Shown here: one piece after another, positions 519 through 10,359 of the stretch
Layout of the letters: each line of letters begins with the position of its first letter
Position numbering within the stretch: position 1 is the stretch's first letter
NCBI RefSeq assembly: GCF_000024765.1
Contig: NC_013422.1
Coordinates: forward strand, 2,483,501-2,547,500
Length of the DNA stretch: 64,000 nucleotides
From: Halothiobacillus neapolitanus c2
GTDB lineage: Bacteria; Pseudomonadota; Gammaproteobacteria; Halothiobacillales; Halothiobacillaceae
Reading direction: 5' to 3'
Notes under the pieces: generated by a model
The model's input: only the letters and a program-made list of their open reading frames with translations
What the model was told of the DNA's origin: nothing
The model's database searches: none
Position numbers and translations under genes: made by a program

Positions 519-1850
519 TCAGTTCAGGATGTCGCTCCCGACTGTTTTACGGAATTCATCGGCCAGCTTGTTGCTCTTGCTGATTAACGCCTTATTCAAA
601 GGCGCATCCGGAGTGACAAGATAGGGCGTGACAAAGATCACAAGATCACTGCGTTTCGATTTGAAATCGCGCGAACGAAACAACTCGCCAAGCACGGGGA
701 TTTGACCCAACCCGGGCACCTTATCGATTGTTTTTGATGCCGAAGAGTCAACCAACCCCGAAATCACGATGGTCTGACCTTCGTGAACATTGACTTCTGT
801 GCTGGCTTTGCGAGTCAGGAATCCTGGGTACCCCTGCACGGTCACACTGGGATCGATGTGACTGATTTCCGCTTTGATCGTCGTCGAAATATCTCCCGTA
901 CTACTGACGACGGGCTCGATGTGAAGCTTGATTCCATAAGGTTTGTACTCAACCGATGTCTGCCCCAAACCTTGTGCAATGGGTATGGGCACCTCCCCGC
1001 CGACAAGGAAATCAGCCGTTCCGCCGCTCCGTGCCGCCAGCTGCGGTGTAGCAAGCTCCCAGGCGTTGCCCGTCTGCATCATCAAATTGATTTTCGAAGT
1101 GATAGACGTCACCAAACCAAAGAAGGCTGGCGTACCTGACAAGGACAATGGCAAATTGACAGCCCCATTCGCACCGATACCGCCGAAGCTACTGGGTGTC
1201 ATGCGATACAGTGAATTCGAAGCAAAGTCATGGGCCAGCGCTCCGCCAGGGCCATCGATCACGGAATCCCACTTAATACCGATCTGATGCAGGGCGCTTT
1301 TGTCGAATTCCATGATGCGCACTTTCATCATGACCATCGGTTTCATCTGCACCGCATTGGCCTGTGTGAAATCAAGAACCTGAGGGTAAACCTTTTTAAT
1401 CGCGGCAATCTGGGCAACATCCTCCTGAGTCAGGTTGACCCCACTTAACACAACGTTTCCACCAACTGTATTAACAGATACGGCTTTGCTCGCTTTCAGC
1501 AGTGTGCGAACTAGCTCCGCCACCTGATCGGTATTGCCCGACACGATATGCAAATCAATGCTGCGACGACTGCCATCCCGCATCCATAGCTGCAATGAGG
1601 TATCGCCCGCTTGATTGGCAATAATCACCATTTGCCGACGTCCGAGAACGCGTACCTCAACCAGCTTGCCATTGCCAACGGCGACACGAAGAAGCGAACC
1701 CGGTGCCGACCTCACCAAAGCTTGCCCTGCATACATCGTGACCGCATCAGGCAACGCGGGCGCATCAGCAGAAAAAACGGGTACGGAAAACAGCCACAAC
1801 GCCAACAACCAGCGTGTATACCTATTGCGTCTGGCGACCAAATTGCACAT
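519..1850 (-). CDS. cpaC: CpaC/RcpA-type outer-membrane secretin of the Tad pilus
   Basis: About 443 residues. It forms the outer-membrane ring through which the Flp pilus emerges. A signal peptide (WLLALWLFSVPVFSA) is followed by a pilus-secretin N-domain (QALVRSAPGSLLRVAVGNG onward), a BON-like segment with the VNTVGGNVVLSG motif, and the C-terminal secretin domain with VPIPIAQGLGQTSVEYKPYG and FLTRKASTEVNVHEGQTIVISGL. An ATG 21 bases upstream (1871) is open, but the ATG at 1850 has GAGAGGA at good spacing, so I prefer 1850. It lies downstream of cpaB in the same direction and just before the FHA-CpaF gene. Confidence 0.93.
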   Translation of the reverse strand: MCNLVARRNRYTRWLLALWLFSVPVFSADAPALPDAVTMYAGQALVRSAPGSLLRVAVGNGKLVEVRVLGRRQMVIIANQAGDTSLQLWMRDGSRRSIDLHIVSGNTDQVAELVRTLLKASKAVSVNTVGGNVVLSGVNLTQEDVAQIAAIKKVYPQVLDFTQANAVQMKPMVMMKVRIMEFDKSALHQIGIKWDSVIDGPGGALAHDFASNSLYRMTPSSFGGIGANGAVNLPLSLSGTPAFFGLVTSITSKINLMMQTGNAWELATPQLAARSGGTADFLVGGEVPIPIAQGLGQTSVEYKPYGIKLHIEPVVSSTGDISTTIKAEISHIDPSVTVQGYPGFLTRKASTEVNVHEGQTIVISGLVDSSASKTIDKVPGLGQIPVLGELFRSRDFKSKRSDLVIFVTPYLVTPDAPLNKALISKSNKLADEFRKTVGSDILN

Positions 1851-1874
1851 TAATAATCCTCTCGATTCCATGAG

Positions 1875-2651
1875 TTACTGCCTTCCACCGATAATGAATT
1901 GGACGCCGCCACCATGTGCACGAGGACCCGCGCCCAAAAGGTCGGATGCTGTCAACAACCCCAGGTTTGGTGGAAATTTGGTGTCGGGCGAACGCAGCAT
2001 GACGAGCAGTTGACCCATCTTTTTAGCGATGCCGATTCGTTGCGCATTCTTAGGAGTCAACTCCAGCGTGAGATTGGAGTAGCCTTGGTTTCCTTCTGTG
2101 CCGTCGCTTCTAACCCCTTTGGCGTGCTTCCCGGTAGCGAGCACTAGAACATCGCTAAGGAGTGGGCGAATATCGTCCTTACTGTTTTTGGACAAGAGCA
2201 GAAGAATGTCGATGTGATCACCCGGCACAATCAAACCAGAAATCGAATTGGTTTCACTGACATCAATGGTGTAGGCGACACGGTCTGGCTTGATGATGTC
2301 GGAAAAGTGATTCGCGATCGGTTCCATCGCCATCGCGGATATGGGCGCGCCTTGGGCCAATGGAGTCGTCAACATCTGTCCCAAGTGACTTTCGTAGTCA
2401 TCCGGGGTCAGTGCATCAGCGGGGACATAGGCCACAGGAATATCCCGTGTAGCCAGATCTTTTGCTGACAACACGTCACCCACTTTAAGGTTATGCACAG
2501 GCACAACCACCGTGCGCATCTTTTGCGGCGCGGCCGTATGAGTTCTCGTGGCAACCTGCTGGTTGATGTATTTCACAGCCAAAACGCTGGCTAAACCACC
2601 GAGCAAAACGGCTACAGCAACATACAAAAAGTTGCGATTTACTTTAGGCAT
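1875..2651 (-). CDS. cpaB: CpaB/RcpC-type Flp pilus assembly protein
   Basis: 258 residues. A single N-terminal membrane segment (LYVAVAVLLGGLASVLAV) anchors a periplasmic SAF domain (about 45-110: VPVHNLKVGDVLSAKDLATRD) and an RcpC/CpaB C-terminal domain with the typical VAYTIDVSE and LIVPGDHIDILL strings. Family members work with the secretin during Flp pilus assembly. The gene lies between the second Flp-like pilin and cpaC, four bases before the longest possible cpaC start, so the two are probably co-translated. Confidence 0.93.
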   Translation of the reverse strand: MPKVNRNFLYVAVAVLLGGLASVLAVKYINQQVATRTHTAAPQKMRTVVVPVHNLKVGDVLSAKDLATRDIPVAYVPADALTPDDYESHLGQMLTTPLAQGAPISAMAMEPIANHFSDIIKPDRVAYTIDVSETNSISGLIVPGDHIDILLLLSKNSKDDIRPLLSDVLVLATGKHAKGVRSDGTEGNQGYSNLTLELTPKNAQRIGIAKKMGQLLVMLRSPDTKFPPNLGLLTASDLLGAGPRAHGGGVQFIIGGRQ

Positions 2652-2673: not shown

Positions 2674-2877
2674 TCAAGGAGCCGACAGAACAAACACAAA
2701 ACTCTGATAAGCCTGCCCAAGAGCAAGCGCCAATTGGTGCATGACATTCGGGCCGGCAACGAGCAACAAAACGAACAAGAAGGCGATGATGATGTACTCA
2801 ACCAACGCCGCACCATGTTGACAGCTAGACGGCGCGCCATATTTCGGGTAACGATGCTTCAATCCATGTGAGCGCAT
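2674..2877 (-). CDS. Flp-like pilin or pseudopilin
   Basis: 67 residues. A positively charged 22-residue leader ends in Gly and is followed by AALVEYIIIAFLFVLLLV. This is the class IVb Flp pattern, with Glu at +5 and Tyr at +6 after the predicted prepilin-peptidase cut, then a hydrophobic helix. The leader is long for the family. TAGG before the ATG provides a ribosome site. It differs strongly from the main Flp gene at 7884-8162, so it may be a minor pilin. It lies between cpaB and the gene at 2885-3577. Confidence 0.75.
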   Translation of the reverse strand: MRSHGLKHRYPKYGAPSSCQHGAALVEYIIIAFLFVLLLVAGPNVMHQLALALGQAYQSFVFVLSAP

Positions 2878-2884
2878 GCGTTAC

Positions 2885-3577
2885 CTACGGATTCTGAATA
2901 GTCATGACTATTTGTGACCGAACATTCTTTTGCGGTTCAATGACCAAGTTCATTTTTTGATCACCTCGCTGGAAGTCCAGCACGCAACCGGACGAGGTAC
3001 AGCTATCATTCAATGGTTTCCAGCCCTCGCCTTCGAGACGCTCGCGATAGAAGCTAACATTTTGTTGCGTAGACAGTTTATTCTTCAACGCAATCATCCG
3101 AGTTGGGATGGGATCATCCGGATAGCGGATGTCGTTAAAGACTTTGGAATCCATCGGGGTCGGTATGCCCTTGCCCGGCACGAAGTGCTCGGGGGCCGAA
3201 GCAACATCAACCACACCAATATTTCCTCTGCTTCCAGAACCTGATGCGCTGACCTGAATCGTCATGAAGTAATCACCTTCTCGATGACCAATCACCTGTT
3301 CATTACCCATCTGGTTGACGACAACTTGCTCCCGCCAGACTTTGCGATAAAACGCCAGAATCGCCTCGGGTGACTGCTGCGATTTGAAAACCTGCGCACG
3401 CATATCGAGGCCGTTGAAAATGATTCGATGAGCAACATCCTGAGTGGTGGTTTCTGGCGGAACAGGTGGCGATGGCCAGGAAAACAACCCCGCCATAGCC
3501 ACCAGAGGAAGCCATAAGAGAATGCTGCCCCCAACACCCCGTAACCCAAAGAACGCTTCACACCTTTGAACAAGCAT
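2885..3577 (-). CDS. Unrecognised membrane-anchored protein with two FYR/GW repeats, in the Tad locus
   Basis: 230 residues, no confident family assignment. One N-terminal membrane helix (about 16-34) precedes a periplasmic region. Two internal copies of a motif are visible. The first, at about 70-110, is SPEAILAFYRKVWREQ followed by a strand with FMTIQVS. The second, at about 170-215, is QQNVSFYRERLEGEGW followed by a Cys pair (193, 198), FQRGDQ and MNLVIEP. This FY...L..GW layout recurs in many small secreted proteins of unknown role. The gene lies two bases after the TadE-like gene, which implies a role in pilus biogenesis. The OmpA-family protein at 8637 has a loosely similar stretch. Confidence 0.55.
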   Translation of the reverse strand: MLVQRCEAFFGLRGVGGSILLWLPLVAMAGLFSWPSPPVPPETTTQDVAHRIIFNGLDMRAQVFKSQQSPEAILAFYRKVWREQVVVNQMGNEQVIGHREGDYFMTIQVSASGSGSRGNIGVVDVASAPEHFVPGKGIPTPMDSKVFNDIRYPDDPIPTRMIALKNKLSTQQNVSFYRERLEGEGWKPLNDSCTSSGCVLDFQRGDQKMNLVIEPQKNVRSQIVMTIQNP

Positions 3578-3578
3578 C

Positions 3579-4454
3579 CTATTTCACCAACTTGTCGACG
3601 GGGACAACATCCGGAGCGGTTCGGCCCATTTCAAAGTGATCCATATTGGGTGTGAGCAAATCGTTAATTAATGGAATGCTCCCGAGCAGCTTAGCGGCCC
3701 CGTTAATCACGGAACTCAAGCTACCCAACCACGTGGAGGGCACCATTGGCTGGATAACCGCCCTTACCGTTCGATTGGCATAGGCGCCGCCTGCAGATTG
3801 CCCATTCAGGGTTTCGCCTCCACCAGCCGCATCCCAAGTGTCTGCTAAGAGGACGGTCTTAGCAGAAATGTCCATTCGTTTATTGACCAAGCCGCCCAGA
3901 AACTGCAAGGGAGAACCGTCAGTGCTCAGAATCTTTTGGGTATTCGCATGAACTTCAGCGGTAACCAGACCCTGCCGATTTGGAGGCAAGGTATCAGAAA
4001 GCGCATTGCCGAGCATGCTTATGGCTTGATCCAGGTAGCTGGGCGATGCTTGCTGCTGATAGACCTTTAGGGTCAGGTCAGAGGGATTCAGTAGTGGGCG
4101 CCCTGCAAATGTGGTCAACATGGGATCAGGGAAGCCAGCAGGAGCAGATCCTCCGCTGAGTAATGCTGAGTCTGCATCCGCAAACTGATGTTGGCGTAGT
4201 TGTGTTTCTTCGGTCGTTTTGCTCGGAATGACGGCAGTTGCAAGGGCGGGATCGACCGTAGCGGCCCAAGCGGCTTCTCGAACGGCATTCTGGGTTTGCA
4301 ATTTGATGTGAATAAATTGCCCTAACAACATCACACCCATGGCAAGTGGCACTAGAACCGTTAAAGAAATTGCCATCTCAACCAGACTTTGCCCCCGCTG
4401 CTTATGGCGGTTGCTCCCGGTTTGAGGAGGTGCTGATTTTGTGCGGTAATTCAT
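3579..4454 (-). CDS. TadE-like pseudopilin
   Basis: 291 residues. A charged leader (MNYRTKSAPPQTGSNRHKQRG) is followed by QSLVEMAISLTVLVPLAMGVMLL. This fits the TadE pattern of a Gly cleavage site, Glu at +5 and a hydrophobic helix. The following NAVREAAWAATV is also common in TadE/TadG proteins. The large remainder is presumably periplasmic and lacks a recognised domain. At almost 300 residues it is longer than a typical TadE (about 150-200). It is transcribed with its Tad neighbours on both sides. Confidence 0.8.
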   Translation of the reverse strand: MNYRTKSAPPQTGSNRHKQRGQSLVEMAISLTVLVPLAMGVMLLGQFIHIKLQTQNAVREAAWAATVDPALATAVIPSKTTEETQLRQHQFADADSALLSGGSAPAGFPDPMLTTFAGRPLLNPSDLTLKVYQQQASPSYLDQAISMLGNALSDTLPPNRQGLVTAEVHANTQKILSTDGSPLQFLGGLVNKRMDISAKTVLLADTWDAAGGGETLNGQSAGGAYANRTVRAVIQPMVPSTWLGSLSSVINGAAKLLGSIPLINDLLTPNMDHFEMGRTAPDVVPVDKLVK

Positions 4455-4461
4455 GCCAGAG

Positions 4462-4956
4462 TTATTCTGTGGCTGTCGTGCAAGTCAATCGGCCGTCAAG
4501 GGTTAACTCGTCGTTATTTGATCCTCGCTTACGCAGCAACACATGGGTGAAGGTGATTGTTTTGGTGTTTGATACGGTCGATGCATCCAATCCAGGAATC
4601 GTGCCGGATGCCTTGGCAGAGAAATAGAAATCCTGTTGACTCTTGCCACTGGGAACGAATCCAAGACGCTGCTGCGTACCGTCATCATTGACGCTAAATA
4701 AGGCAATATTCGGTCCATCAGATTTACCGATGGCAGAAAAATAACCAAGACCTACCAGATGCCCAGATCTCAGAGTGCAGTTAATGGCGTTAAATGTCGC
4801 CGTACCAGTTAAAACGCCGGTGTAATGCAATTCATTACCTGCAGGCCGTTGATTATCTGCACTGACGACGCCCAGTCCCGATGCAGCAAAAAGAAAAAAC
4901 ATGCCTGCTGTTTTAATGGTACTTAAAAATAAATTTGATTTGGTATATTTATTCAT
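4462..4956 (-). CDS. Small secreted protein, member 1 of a local three-paralogue family
   Basis: 164 residues, function unknown. It has a signal-peptide-like N-terminus (TAGMFFLFAASGLGVVSA). The mature part starts with ELHYTGVLTGTATFNAINC and ends with LTLDGRLTCTT. The two Cys (60 and 159) sit at the same relative places in the two following genes and could form a disulfide. A near-C-terminal strand (ITFTHVLLR) also matches the paralogues. All-beta composition and tandem position within the Tad operon suggest a secreted or pilus-associated factor, but no function can be assigned from sequence. Confidence 0.7.
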   Translation of the reverse strand: MNKYTKSNLFLSTIKTAGMFFLFAASGLGVVSADNQRPAGNELHYTGVLTGTATFNAINCTLRSGHLVGLGYFSAIGKSDGPNIALFSVNDDGTQQRLGFVPSGKSQQDFYFSAKASGTIPGLDASTVSNTKTITFTHVLLRKRGSNNDELTLDGRLTCTTATE

Positions 4957-4971
4957 CTCGCAGTCACCTCG

Positions 4972-5526
4972 TCATGGATTCGATTTTTTGGATAAAATTT
5001 TATTAATATTTTGCATACTTTGATTGGCATCAATATTGCAATATATCTTTCCACTTAAATAAGTTATGTGCCGCACACCATCCTCACCAATGCTTGTCAT
5101 CATTACTTTATCCAAAGTGATTTCGAAGTTTTTATTCTCTTCTTTATGCCAAATAATTGCCGGGTGGTTCGCAGGAATGTCGTAGGTAAAAGTCGTGAGC
5201 GGCTGCTGGTGATATTGATCGGGCACGAACTCAAACCCTCTGCCAGCAATCAGAGTGAATCTCGGTCCAAATAGTCTGCCATCACGAACCAAGGGCAAGT
5301 CAGGCGCATAAACGTAGAGTGCTTTGGGATCATTGTTCATGTCATAGCAAGCAACTTTCTCAAACTGAACCGTGCCATTAACGACTCCTTGATAATGCAG
5401 CACACTCGTGGGTGTTTTTTCAGCCCAAGCACAGTGCGAGGCAAAGACAAAGGCAGACAAAATGATTATCTTGTCGACTGACTTCTTCAAAAAAACCGCA
5501 TCAATAAAACTTCTTTTCGAGTTCAT
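4972..5526 (-). CDS. Small secreted protein, member 2 of the three-paralogue family
   Basis: 184 residues, function unknown. A signal peptide (IIILSAFVFASHCAWA) is followed by VLHYQGVVNGTVQFEKVAC, which aligns directly with ELHYTGVLTGTATFNAINC of the gene at 4462. The C-terminal LSGKIYC matches LDGRLTC, giving the conserved Cys pair 60 and 163. A 20-residue Asn/Lys/Ser-rich tail is peculiar to this copy. The coding region is markedly AT-rich compared with flanking genes, especially around 4980-5060. Confidence 0.7.
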   Translation of the reverse strand: MNSKRSFIDAVFLKKSVDKIIILSAFVFASHCAWAEKTPTSVLHYQGVVNGTVQFEKVACYDMNNDPKALYVYAPDLPLVRDGRLFGPRFTLIAGRGFEFVPDQYHQQPLTTFTYDIPANHPAIIWHKEENKNFEITLDKVMMTSIGEDGVRHITYLSGKIYCNIDANQSMQNINKILSKKSNP

Positions 5527-5569
5527 AAATTACTTTCCATTGTGCCTATTTAAATTTAGTCACGTGTAT

Positions 5570-6076
5570 TTAATCCTTATTCATGTTGTGGGTGCAGGCC
5601 AACGTTCCATTTAAGTTAACTTTAATCTGAATTGGAAGAGAGTCTCCCTCGTACTTAGTGCAAGAGACCTGAACATCCTTGAATGTCAAAGACCAGTTAT
5701 TACCGACATGATGCCAGAAAACCCCCTGGCTATTCTTAGCTCTGCCGCAAAGCCCCAATCCCTTAGAGGAGAACATAATTTTATAATCGCTCGTTTCAAA
5801 CCCAAGTGTCGCAACTTCTCTTTTTCGATTTGATCGATCCGAAGGCGCGGTGAAGGTCCCAATATCTTCACCTATAGGTGTGCAATCAGCGCTGCCAAAT
5901 GATAACTTTCCGTTACTGGCACCAGAAATTAGCAATTCGCCTGACGCCGCATAAGCCTGGTTCACTGCCATGATCACCCCCACAAGAACAGCGACATGCA
6001 AAGCACGATATAAGAATCCATGTTTTTCATGGATGAATCTGCCGAGTTTTTTTTGGTGTATGGATATTTTTTTCAT
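5570..6076 (-). CDS. Small secreted protein, member 3 of the three-paralogue family
   Basis: 168 residues from the ATG at 6076, which has AAGGA seven bases upstream; the open frame extends further but would overlap the TadG-like gene. A long charged N-region precedes a signal helix (ALHVAVLVGVIMAVNQAYAA). The mature part opens with ELLISGASNGKLSFGSADC and closes with LNGTLACTHN, matching the paralogues including the outer Cys pair (65 and 161). It has extra Cys inside (in GLGLCGRA and VSCTKY) that may form a second disulfide. Function unknown. Confidence 0.7.
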   Translation of the reverse strand: MKKISIHQKKLGRFIHEKHGFLYRALHVAVLVGVIMAVNQAYAASGELLISGASNGKLSFGSADCTPIGEDIGTFTAPSDRSNRKREVATLGFETSDYKIMFSSKGLGLCGRAKNSQGVFWHHVGNNWSLTFKDVQVSCTKYEGDSLPIQIKVNLNGTLACTHNMNKD

Positions 6077-6122
6077 CAATAGTCCTTGTTGGAATAAGGT
6101 GGTAGCTGATAACAATGCAATT

Positions 6123-7715
6123 TCACGGCGAACAAACGCCGACCACGCCATAGGTGGCCGCAACCGCCAATTGAGTCGTGCAAGGTGTTTCCACGAGGCG
6201 CACCTGCCAGTACGGGCTGAACAGACTGCCTGTCTCTCGATGCGAATCGACAAGATTCGGAAACAAAGTTTGCGAGCGACTGAAATACACCTGAGCAGAT
6301 GAAAGCGCGGTCATCTTGTCGTGTACGGTTTTATCGGCAATATCAAAATCCGGCGGGCCTCCGATACCGGGCACATGGCTGCTGGTGCGGACGGTGCTCA
6401 TGGACTCTTCAACGAGCACCGTAAATAAGGGGCCGACATCTAAATTATTCACCCCGTTAGCGGAGGCGCTCTTGCCATTCAGGTAGGGAACGGTGGCCTT
6501 GTCACTTTTGATATCGTTGTAGTCGGGAAGGCCGACGGTGGCTCCCGAAATAACGGATAAAGATGGTTTGATCCAAGGGGTGCCGTTTTCTGCGGGATCG
6601 GAAAGTACCTTATTGCCCGCATCCCCATTTTGCAGAGCGCCACTGTAGGCAGGGTAACTCCCGGGGCCTGCGTATTCCTGCGGTCTCCACGTGTATGGGC
6701 CCTTCCAACCATTATCCTGACGAGCCAAACCACTAAAACCGTTGCTAGGCGTTTGATCCACGCCCGCCGCACCACCCCAGGCCATTGGCACATTGACGTG
6801 GCAGGTTGTTGGATGAGAGGACCATCCGCCCGACCAACAGGGAAACCAGACATGCAAGTTCAGTGTATCCAGACCAACCCAATTGCGATAATTAACAAGG
6901 TCGGTACCGCCCTTCTTATCCATCGATAATCCTATGCTGGCCAATCCGCTACCCGCGCCGAAACCGACATGACCATCACGCACTCGTGAAAAAGGATCAC
7001 GGGCTTCCATAACTACATTGGCAAAGCGATCCGCCTCTGCGGACTGACTTCCATCCGTAGGAATCACATATCGAGCAACATAACCATTCGCACTCCGTGC
7101 ACTCTGTGCCAACAATGCCAAGCCCATTGCAGGAATATCCACCCGAGGATTATTCAACCGCGCGATCCGACGAGCCAAATTGGCAATATCTGCAGATTGC
7201 ACAGGGCTGGCAATCAAATGCGAAGCTTTAGAATAGGCTCCATCAAGGTTTGCAATAACGGCTGATGCAATATTTAAAACCTCTTGCTCTATATCTCGCC
7301 CCTGAACTAAAGCATCCTTAACGTTACCAAGAATGTTTGCGGCTTGTTGCAGAACAGCACCAAGCTCAGCACCGACGACTGATATATCAGCGACAATCGC
7401 CACTTTTTGTATGGCATTCTTGAGATGATCTGTCGCACTAATGGCAAAATTGGTCCACGAATACCAGCTGACCATTTGAGCCATGGCGACCTGATTCGCG
7501 ACGGTCGCTCGATTCATGTACGAGATCATGTTAAGCGCGCGCGCCTGTTGTACTGCCGCACTGTAGGCAGCGGCGTCAGCCGTGTTAACCAACTGCATTT
7601 TTTTGCTTACCGCCTGGCCGGAATTGAACAGCACGATTACCCCGACCACCAGCACGACCAGTGTAATCAGTGCAAGAATAAGAGCCTGCCCGCTGAGCCG
7701 GGAAGGCAAGGACAT
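6123..7715 (-). CDS. TadG-like pilus assembly protein
   Basis: About 530 residues from the ATG at 7715. The N-terminus SGQALILALITLVVLVVGVIVLFNSG followed by QLVNTADAAAYSAA and QARALNMISYMNRA is the TadG-like N-terminal domain: a membrane helix and an Ala-rich segment. The rest is a large, presumably periplasmic domain without a recognised family. Unlike the pilins it lacks Glu at +5. The start is uncertain. A GTG at 7751 has AAGAGG at good spacing, and an ATG at 7778 overlaps the stop of a 26-codon reading frame in a TGATG arrangement. It lies directly after the Flp pilin gene. Confidence 0.8.
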   Translation of the reverse strand: MSLPSRLSGQALILALITLVVLVVGVIVLFNSGQAVSKKMQLVNTADAAAYSAAVQQARALNMISYMNRATVANQVAMAQMVSWYSWTNFAISATDHLKNAIQKVAIVADISVVGAELGAVLQQAANILGNVKDALVQGRDIEQEVLNIASAVIANLDGAYSKASHLIASPVQSADIANLARRIARLNNPRVDIPAMGLALLAQSARSANGYVARYVIPTDGSQSAEADRFANVVMEARDPFSRVRDGHVGFGAGSGLASIGLSMDKKGGTDLVNYRNWVGLDTLNLHVWFPCWSGGWSSHPTTCHVNVPMAWGGAAGVDQTPSNGFSGLARQDNGWKGPYTWRPQEYAGPGSYPAYSGALQNGDAGNKVLSDPAENGTPWIKPSLSVISGATVGLPDYNDIKSDKATVPYLNGKSASANGVNNLDVGPLFTVLVEESMSTVRTSSHVPGIGGPPDFDIADKTVHDKMTALSSAQVYFSRSQTLFPNLVDSHRETGSLFSPYWQVRLVETPCTTQLAVAATYGVVGVCSP

Positions 7716-7777
7716 TTTTTTCCGTCGGAGCTTCAATGCAATTCCCTGCACCTGACACCTCTTAGATGATGCAAGCA

Positions 7778-7858
7778 TCAGAGCAACAGCCTGATGAGAC
7801 CGGGAAGAAGCAGAGAGAGCATTAGCGGCGCAAGTACCGCTGAGGCACCCACCCACAT
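7778..7858 (-). CDS. Possible 26-residue hydrophobic peptide
   Basis: A short open frame between flp and the TadG-like gene encodes MWVGASAVLAPLMLSLLLPG plus IRLLL, almost entirely hydrophobic. CCGGAAAAA precedes the ATG, a weak ribosome site. Its TGA overlaps an in-frame ATG of the TadG-like frame (TGATG at 7776-7780). It may be a leader peptide coupling translation, a micro-protein, or chance. Confidence 0.3.
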   Translation of the reverse strand: MWVGASAVLAPLMLSLLLPGLIRLLL

Positions 7859-7883
7859 TTTTTCCGGATCTAGGCCATTGCTG

Positions 7884-8162
7884 TTACTGCGAGTTGTCGT
7901 AACTGTTGAGGGATTTTTGCTTATGTTCCGAGCGAGCTTGACCAGCAGCTGATTTGGCAGTCTGGATATCAGAAGTGGCGGACTGACCTGACAACTCCTC
8001 CGCCATACCACCAATTTGCGAGCGGGCCGTTTGCCCGAAGTACATGACGGCACCGATAGCGGCGATTGCGATTAGAGCGGTGATTATGATGTACTCGGTC
8101 ATTCCTTGACCTCGTTGACGAGCGCGGGTGTTGTTGCGGCGAGTGTTTAGCGTTTTGTTCAT
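7884..8162 (-). CDS. flp: Flp-type major pilin
   Basis: 92 residues. The leader MNKTLNTRRNNTRARQRG is followed by QGMTEYIIITALIAIAAIGAV. This is the classic Flp motif, with a Gly at the predicted cut, Glu +5 and Tyr +6. The C-terminal region is hydrophilic and rich in Ser, Gln and Lys, as in exposed Flp tails. GGAGG lies five bases before the ATG at 8162; an upstream TTG in the same frame falls inside this ribosome site and is discounted. As the first gene of the Tad operon it is probably the most highly expressed subunit. Confidence 0.92.
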   Translation of the reverse strand: MNKTLNTRRNNTRARQRGQGMTEYIIITALIAIAAIGAVMYFGQTARSQIGGMAEELSGQSATSDIQTAKSAAGQARSEHKQKSLNSYDNSQ

Positions 8163-8636
8163 AGCTACCTCCAAGTTGTAAAGTTCTGAAACAACCCAAA
8201 ATCCATATCGACAAATCCAAACCTGTTTGATCCGCGGGAGTGGACATGGAATTCAGGAGGGCCATTTATCCAATAAATATACGGGCACTCACCTAGGAGC
8301 ACCCATACAACGACCCTTTTTTATTTGTAATGCAATCATGTAAAATAAGTCAACAAAAGTTTATCCTGATAAACTAATTAGCCCTTGAATATACCTGCGT
8401 GGTTGTGGGTGAGTTCAGGCATTTTCTTCTGGAAATGTGATCGAGCCGCGAACTCACTTGGGTATGGAGGGTGTAACCTCGGATGAAAGCCAACGAACTA
8501 GGTTGTTGTTGACTTGATACACTCTGTCAAAACAGAACCACGTGTTCCATCCATTAAAAGGAATCTGATCGCCCAATGACTGTGACGACGTTCACCGCAC
8601 ACTAATTCTTTCACTAAGTTATGGATGACTTAAATC
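8163..8636. other. 474-base divergent intergenic region
   Basis: This separates the minus-strand Tad operon from the plus-strand OmpA-family gene. It is AT-rich near 8330-8390 and holds the candidate promoter at 8324-8353. No coding frame, RNA gene or convincing operator was seen. It probably carries both promoters and the control sites of the pilus operon. Confidence 0.5.
8324..8353 (-). promoter_or_regulatory. Candidate sigma-70 promoter for the Tad operon
   Basis: On the minus strand TTGACT (8353-8348) is followed after 18 bases by TACAAA (8329-8324), within an AT-rich stretch. It points towards flp and would leave a leader of about 155 bases. The spacing is acceptable but the -10 is poor. 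Confidence 0.35.
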
Positions 8637-9632
8637 ATGATCTACCGCACCGCGATCAAATTTGCTTTTTTTCTTTGCCTTTCAGTGACGTCCACGTCTG
8701 TATTTGCCGCCAAGGATGCGGTCGGTTGCAAGGACAACCCGATCGTGTCCAGATTCCAGGGAGCGACCTTACTGGCCTGCCAACAGAAGAACTACGATGA
8801 GTCGGCATTGCCGCTCGGGATATGGAAAGATAATCAACCAACACCCAGTAAAGTCATGACGGCCAGCGGAAAGTCGGCGTGGTACTTCTATAGCATCCCC
8901 CAAAGCGTCAGTGGCATGGAGGTGTTTCGCAATTACGAATCGGCGCTGACCAAAGCCGGATTCAGTATTCCGTTCCAATGCTCGGGCACACAGCAATGTG
9001 GCTGGGAGTTGGCCAATCAGGGGCTACAACCACTCCATGGCTTCGCCGGGCATATTGGCACTTCAAATTATGCGATCGGCGCTGCAGGCATGGACGGCGT
9101 TTTTCATGAGTTGACGGCACACCTTCAACGTCCGCAAGGCAATGTTGACCTTATGCTTATGGTGATCGACCGCGACTCGGCGCAAGGTCTGCAAGCACCC
9201 GCGGTTTACCTGAAACTGATTGAAGGCCAACCGATGAAGACCGGCGAGGTGACGGTAACAGCTAAGGCCATCAGTAACGGACTTGCCCAGAATGGCCATA
9301 TTGCCCTTTATGGCATTCATTTCGCGACTGATAGCGCGGCGCTGGAGGCGAGCTCTGACAAGGAACTAGGCGAGATGGCTAAAATGCTGAAGCAAGAACC
9401 TTCGGCGCATGTATATATCGTGGGGCATACCGATGATACAGGCGCGTTGCCCCATAATCTGAAGCTTTCCCGGGATCGAGCTGACGCGGTGGTTAAAGCT
9501 CTGATTACCCGGTACGGTATTTCGTCGAACCGGTTGGTTGCCGAGGGCGTCGCTTCTTTTGCGCCCGTTGCCAGTAACGCATCGGATCAGGGTCGCGCGC
9601 TCAATCGACGAGTTGAGATAGTTCTGCAATAG
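8637..9632 (+). CDS. OmpA-family outer-membrane protein
   Basis: 331 residues. A signal peptide (FAFFLCLSVTSTSVFA) is followed by an N-terminal domain of about 190 residues resembling the DUF4892-like lead of some OmpA proteins, with Cys pairs in QCSGTQQC. The C-terminal 110 residues are an OmpA/MotB peptidoglycan-binding domain: IALYGIHFATDSAAL, VYIVGHTDDTG, LKLSRDRADAVV and ALNRRVEIVL. It therefore probably links the outer membrane to peptidoglycan. It is divergent from the Tad operon; a role with the pilus is only suggested by position. Confidence 0.85.
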   Translation: MIYRTAIKFAFFLCLSVTSTSVFAAKDAVGCKDNPIVSRFQGATLLACQQKNYDESALPLGIWKDNQPTPSKVMTASGKSAWYFYSIPQSVSGMEVFRNYESALTKAGFSIPFQCSGTQQCGWELANQGLQPLHGFAGHIGTSNYAIGAAGMDGVFHELTAHLQRPQGNVDLMLMVIDRDSAQGLQAPAVYLKLIEGQPMKTGEVTVTAKAISNGLAQNGHIALYGIHFATDSAALEASSDKELGEMAKMLKQEPSAHVYIVGHTDDTGALPHNLKLSRDRADAVVKALITRYGISSNRLVAEGVASFAPVASNASDQGRALNRRVEIVLQ

Positions 9633-9732: not shown

Positions 9733-10359
9733 ATGACAACGACGCTGGTTATCGCCACCCACAATTTGGGCAAACTCCGAGAATTCGAAGCCATGCGGCT
9801 TAGCCTCATGCCCCGCTTCTCTGCCTTGGCCAATATTGAATTTGTACCGCTGACCGATTGGGCGGGTGAGCCGCCTGAGGAAGATGGGGATACGTTTTTC
9901 GAAAATGCCCTGATTAAAGCGCGCTCGGCCGCGGCGCTGACCGGGCTGCCTGCCATTGCCGATGACTCAGGGCTTGAAGTCGTTGGACTCGATGGCGCAC
10001 CGGGTATTTATTCGGCGCGTTACGCGGGGCCGGATGCGGACGATGCCGAGAATAATCAACGACTTTTACAGGAACTGGCGAAGCGTCCGCAAGCCGATCG
10101 CTCTGCGCGTTTTGTCAGCACGCTCGCCATGGTACGAACGGCAGATGACTCCGCACCCCTATTGGCCGAAGGCTTCTGGCACGGTCAAATTGTGGATACA
10201 CCCCGCGGCGCGACCGGATTTGGCTATGACCCCCTGTTCTACGTGCCCGATCGCAATTGCACGGCGGCGGAGCTCCCTGCCAGCATCAAAAATCGCATCA
10301 GCCACCGTGCTCAAGCGCTGATTGAATTGATGCGTCAGTTAAGCAATATGCGTTTCTAA
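9733..10359 (+). CDS. rdgB: XTP/dITP diphosphatase (Ham1/RdgB)
   Basis: 208 residues. It hydrolyses dITP, XTP and ITP to monophosphates, keeping deaminated purines out of nucleic acids. The Ham1 motifs are clear: VIATHNLGKLREFE at the N-terminus, FFENALIKARSAA, ADDSGLEVVGLDGAPGIYSARYAG, and ATGFGYDPLFYVP. AGCAGGAA before the ATG at 9733 decides the start over longer frames. Its TAA overlaps the ATG of hemW by one base (TAATG), so the two are translationally coupled. Confidence 0.96.
   Translation: MTTTLVIATHNLGKLREFEAMRLSLMPRFSALANIEFVPLTDWAGEPPEEDGDTFFENALIKARSAAALTGLPAIADDSGLEVVGLDGAPGIYSARYAGPDADDAENNQRLLQELAKRPQADRSARFVSTLAMVRTADDSAPLLAEGFWHGQIVDTPRGATGFGYDPLFYVPDRNCTAAELPASIKNRISHRAQALIELMRQLSNMRF

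Follow-up and report, generated by a model that had tools for sequence, protein, structure and literature searches.

What three small exported proteins do inside a pilus operon, encoded between the genes of two of its minor pilins, is the question raised by a locus of Halothiobacillus neapolitanus c2. Halothiobacillus oxidises sulfur and is found growing on concrete and on minerals. The window, the whole 64,000-nucleotide stretch of its chromosome that was analysed, contains three minus-strand open reading frames, here called A, B and C, that span positions 4462-6076 exactly and are transcribed in the order C, then B, then A. A sequence-only reading of the window had taken them for tandem paralogues of an undescribed secreted, cysteine-paired family inside a Tad operon. 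The literature searched gave no account of a tad pilus in Halothiobacillus.

Table 1. Genes of the tad cluster in the window, with relatives in other loci.
Feature	Position	Strand	Description	Basis or relatives
Gene A	4462..4956	-	164 aa; predicted signal peptide to ~residue 33; mature domain with C60 + C159	orthologues L014:523-1017; L013:10274-10822
Gene B	4972..5526	-	184 aa; predicted signal peptide to ~residue 35; mature domain with C60 + C163	counterparts L014:1033-1587; L013:9738-10259
Gene C	5570..6076	-	168 aa; predicted signal peptide to ~residue 43; mature domain with C65/C161 + C110/C139	orthologues L014:1607-2134; L013:9132-9695
Flp-type pilin (QGMTEYIIITALIAIAAIG)	7884..8174	-	first gene of the tad cluster	sequence; relatives in the same place
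TadG-like large minor pilin	6123..7712	-	directly upstream of the triple	PF13400, E 2.6e-8
TadE-like minor pilin	3579..4454	-	directly downstream, 7 bp after A	PF07811, E 1.7e-9
230-aa exported protein	2885..3577	-		counterparts in most related tad loci read
Second small Flp-like pilin	2674..2877	-	67 aa	sequence; counterparts in related tad loci
CpaB/RcpC	1875..2651	-		PF16976, E 7.7e-24
CpaC/RcpA secretin	519..1871	-		PF00263, E 7.8e-41

In transcription order the operon reads Flp-like pilin, TadG-like protein, C, B, A, TadE, the 230-aa protein, the second Flp-like pilin, CpaB/RcpC and CpaC/RcpA. Past the start of the window, reading of locus L015 identified a TadA ATPase, then TadB and TadC, then a TPR-type lipoprotein and another TadE-like protein. 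The tad operon held by the window and L015 together is nearly complete; a gene for a prepilin peptidase is present at another site of the genome. Around the triple the genes are on one strand with gaps of 7 bp (TadE-A), 15 bp (A-B), 43 bp (B-C) and 46 bp (C-TadG). The location inside a Tad operon is confirmed by the Pfam matches of the neighbours and by the upstream genes in L015. So is the AT-richness noted earlier: the GC content of A, B and C is 0.41-0.45, against 0.52-0.53 in the adjoining tad genes and 0.555 in the window.

Other parts of the locus have features of their own. The 230-aa protein, encoded after TadE and before the second Flp-like pilin, has same-place counterparts in most of the related tad loci that were read (for example L065, L067, L068, L069, L071-L074, L076, L077, L089-L091 and L095-L097). 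Pfam and NCBIfam give no family for it above cut-off, and it is apparently a conserved unnamed Tad component. The TadA/CpaF-type ATPase (L015:4297-6003, minus strand) has an N-terminal FHA-like segment recognised by eye, as do those of related loci. Divergent from the operon is the gene of an OmpA-domain protein with a weakly DUF4892-like N-terminus (window 8637-9632, plus strand), which lies beside the operon in each of the three tad-bearing Halothiobacillus genomes.

Pairwise BLAST of the single A, B and C sequences gave E values of 1e-4, 2e-4 and 0.037, which are marginal alone. Profile-profile comparison of the orthologue sets gave 6.8e-11 for A/B, 8.8e-6 for A/C and 2.2e-9 for B/C. Judged by this comparison A, B and C are real, homologous genes and true paralogues, as had been proposed. 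Eight positions of the mature protein do not vary among the nine proteins of the three genomes: L, G, G, F and C on the N-terminal side and L, G and C on the C-terminal side. The two motifs described earlier extend beyond the window. They take the form L-x3-G-x3-G-x3-F-x4-C close to the N-terminus of the mature protein and L-x-G-x2-C towards its C-terminal end, and both are invariant in 9/9. Among 2,986 stop-to-stop frames taken from 39 tad loci, the two-part motif matched the nine family members only.

The two invariant cysteines agree with the earlier description of a cysteine-paired family. Mature A and mature B contain just two cysteines apiece in each of the three species, and mature C has 4, 4 and 2. 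The extra pair of C (C110 and C139) is present in two species and absent from the third, always as a unit, which is the pattern expected of disulfide partners. A disulfide in A, B and C can be inferred from the invariant pairing and from this joint presence or absence. All nine proteins start with a single hydrophobic segment behind a positive n-region, none (0/9) has a later membrane segment, and an A-x-A cleavage site is found in 8/9. Their signal peptides contain no lipobox ([LVI][ASTVI][GAS]C), and the prepilin motif G-x4-E at the hydrophobic segment, which TadE (G21) and Flp1 (G22) have, is absent in 9/9. The signal peptides are of the Sec type and the proteins are predicted to be soluble and exported, with mature sizes of 125-152 aa. 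The earlier claim of secretion is supported as far as predicted export goes.

In Myxococcus, minor pilins of the TadE/TadF/TadG type assemble into tip complexes that are interchangeable, and the same is predicted for other bacteria, with a large TadG as the predicted backbone (PMC12075869). A tip location is predicted for CpaL, the Caulobacter orthologue of TadG (PMC12607857). A, B and C are encoded beside such minor pilins, the counterparts of KilL/M/N in Myxococcus and CpaJ/K/L in Caulobacter, and the same site, the tip, is proposed for them. Unlike the minor pilins they have an ordinary cleavable signal peptide and no membrane helix after cleavage. PF07811 and PF13400 match the neighbouring genes but no member of the family, and A, B and C are not pilins. 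In other type IV pili the minor pilins bear soluble non-pilin partners, TcpF and PilY1 (PMC12075869, PMC12607857); TcpF is docked by the minor pilin TcpB (PMC12075869). TcpF on TcpB and PilY1 on the type IVa minor pilins are, like A, B and C, exported non-pilins encoded with minor pilins, but they have no sequence relation to the triple and PilY1 is far larger. The vWA domain of PilY1-type tip adhesins is not found in A, B or C, nor is any Pfam family in any member.

The AlphaFold2 models of A (pLDDT 55, from six sequences) and C (pLDDT 45, from two sequences, none of them from A or B) are both all-beta. They have the same strand order, with strands at the N-terminal motif, a hairpin at '(W)xxx-x-N-x-x-(I/L)TFxxV' and the last strand at LxGxxC. 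A shared beta fold had been proposed as a check on the family; the two low-confidence models are consistent with one and give weak evidence for it, and no known fold is established. Foldseek against the PDB and viral models gave no match with E < 0.001. For the A model VIA-align placed LpqH chains first, in the chance range (Z 4.4 and 4.1, rmsd 3.8 and 3.7, over 85 and 84 residues). For the C model the CR domain of ChtA and avidin-type barrels came first and LpqH was not listed. The ChtA CR domain is in both the A and C lists with Z of 3.3 and 5.7, within noise, as all VIA-align Z values are at or below 5.7 and the models are poor. The LpqH family itself (PF05481, Myco_19_kDa) gave no match at E up to 10, and its lipobox cysteine is found in none of the family (0/9).

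The triple occurs in 3 of 10 Halothiobacillus genomes, in identical place and order in each. Exactly the same three congeners have the TadE gene, and the same three are the only ones with the TadG gene among 27 genomes of the order; class-wide, TadG relatives are present in 36 of 369 genomes. Searched with a profile of the nine members, neither the 369 gammaproteobacterial genomes nor 398 from across the phylum gave a convincing relative. A scan of GTDB contigs, sensitive to close relatives only, gave nothing beyond one MAG already known to match, and IMG/VR and plasmids gave no family match. The weak hits in G035, G129, G255, G364, G456, G514 and G729 were put down to chance (GNAT-like or DUF177-like proteins, frames with stops, or poor coverage). 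Searches of Pfam, NCBIfam, PHROGs, PADLOC and PDB sequences with A, B, C and their relatives gave no credible family; one member matched PADLOC 'Tmn' (E 0.0012), which no other member did, and this too was taken as chance. Without a match in Pfam, NCBIfam or PDB sequences the family is indeed undescribed. At the sensitivity used it appears restricted to one Halothiobacillus lineage, though highly diverged relatives may exist. Matches scattered only outside Tad loci, which were to count against the proposal, did not occur, and the family was never seen away from a tad locus in the genomes searched. Lying inside the tad cluster, conserved in position and missing from genomes that lack tad, A, B and C are genetically accessory proteins of the Tad locus.

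Between the two closest species the dN/dS of the mature parts is 0.32 for A, 0.30 for B and 0.48 for C. Values below 1 indicate purifying selection at the protein level. They are above those of TadG (0.21) and of the housekeeping genes AtpD (0.02), HemW (0.06) and GlmU (0.11), which fits an exposed, adapting protein. Protein divergence among the three species reaches ~70-75% (B, C). In the tree A and C each group by position (support 87/94 and 75/81) and B does not resolve; B as a strict orthologue in G007 is not supported. As far as the tree tells, the three paralogues predate the split of the three species.

The dS between genome G000, to which the window belongs, and its near relative G002 is 0.5-0.7 for B and C, and 0.30, 0.55 and 0.60 for AtpD, GlmU and HemW. 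A divergent recombined block of B and C with a sharp edge at 6077 was rejected, since 0.5-0.7 is normal for the species pair. The TadG-Flp1-OmpA stretch (window 6077-9460) is the unusually similar part, 95-100% identical to L014 with dS of 0.11-0.12, suggesting that this block was recently exchanged, whereas the A-B-C divergence is ordinary. Next to it the rdgB gene (~9733-10359) is very divergent between the same genomes, with dS ~2. The similarity of the block and the divergence of rdgB may be read as signs of recombination around the locus.

The interval between TadG and TadE was surveyed in 36 tad loci of other Gammaproteobacteria, picked by similarity to the Halothiobacillus TadG, and could be scored, or nearly so, in 27. 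TadE comes straight after TadG in 19 of these 27 (17 called by script, plus L095 and L097 from reading the loci), an exported protein lies between them in six (L065, L068, L071, L072, L083 and L084), and two (L081 and L098) are ambiguous. The slot proteins of L068, L071, L072, L083 and L084 belong to a single divergent family, 260-296 aa long, with four similarly placed mature cysteines (e.g. L068:9591-10478 and L071:9905-10702); that of L065 is a different protein of 444 aa. None of the six significantly resembles A, B or C in sequence (the best E of the four-cysteine family is 0.014, over 44 residues), and the two members of the four-cysteine family that were scanned had no Pfam or NCBIfam match. 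This family resembles A, B and C in its place between TadG and TadE, its export and its paired cysteines, but it is twice their size. With an unrelated exported protein in six loci the interval looks like an accessory slot, and it is repeatedly used for exported proteins outside the core machine. The slot itself is a more interesting lead than the triple. A broader proposal, possible but doubtful, is that many gammaproteobacterial Tad loci have an exchangeable cargo slot whose exported cysteine-paired products, unrelated from lineage to lineage, dock on the tip and set what the pilus binds, A, B and C being the Halothiobacillus set.

The position between TadG and TadE and the unrelated slot proteins elsewhere favour a pilus-accessory role for the triple. 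Most likely it is a lineage-specific accessory set, displayed at or near the TadG/TadE tip; a family dedicated to the Tad pilus would probably be a custom fitting of it, for instance of its tip. In the leading reading, held tentatively and at somewhat less than even confidence, A, B and C are Sec-exported, paralogous, cysteine-paired, beta-rich accessories from the TadG-TadE slot that dock on the minor-pilin tip as a binding surface. They would share a transcript with the minor pilins, leave the cytoplasm through Sec, be cleaved by signal peptidase I, and fold in the periplasm around one disulfide (two in C). They would then dock on the TadG/TadE complex, which would prime and cap the pilus, and as binding modules give the tip its binding surface. 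The docking step is drawn from gene position and from the precedent of TcpF and PilY1. Counted against it are the low pLDDT of the models, the want of a slot protein in most related tad pili, and the lack of a match to DsbB (PF02600) or VKOR (PF07884) in genome G000, where DsbA-family matches do exist. Alternatively the proteins could remain in the envelope as periplasmic or outer-membrane assembly accessories that fold, stabilise or export TadG/TadE or the secretin channel. Their predicted solubility and export, the adjoining minor-pilin and cpaB/cpaC genes, and the constancy of the set, as if all three were needed, would suit such helpers. Most related loci do without the triple or any substitute, though, and A, B and C diverge faster than the machine parts they would serve, which makes this role rather unlikely.

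Signal peptides, stable small cysteine-paired domains and fast divergence would be expected of proteins secreted to the matrix or the cell surface, for which the tad operon provides co-expression only and which act in the biofilm rather than on the pilus. That is less probable still, as the pilus channel is the only known outer-membrane route for free periplasmic proteins and the family is never found away from a tad locus. The low GC and the confinement to one genus could also mark A, B and C as passengers, members of a small exported family brought into the operon by accident and with no functional link to the pilus. Such an origin is highly unlikely for a triple that is under purifying selection, is kept in one slot in three species through all their divergence, and is missing wherever the tad genes are missing. 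Contact delivery of an anti-competitor effector from the tip of the pilus, as the Kil system suggests by analogy, would have precedents in TcpF and in the killing of prey by Tad-type pili with exchangeable tips in Myxococcus (PMC12075869). It is the most improbable of these explanations: no catalytic motif, enzyme family or immunity-type partner was recognised, and three paralogues of one small domain resemble binding modules. Of the original interpretation, what stands is a family of unclassified exported proteins with paired cysteines and a tie to the tad locus, and the suggested tip, adhesin or matrix role is plausible.

Tad pili are widespread and the ligands of their tips are largely unknown. 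If the exchangeable slot is real, the genes next to the minor pilins would give candidate ligand-binding proteins of the tip from genome reading alone. For Halothiobacillus such a slot would point to the attachment factor.
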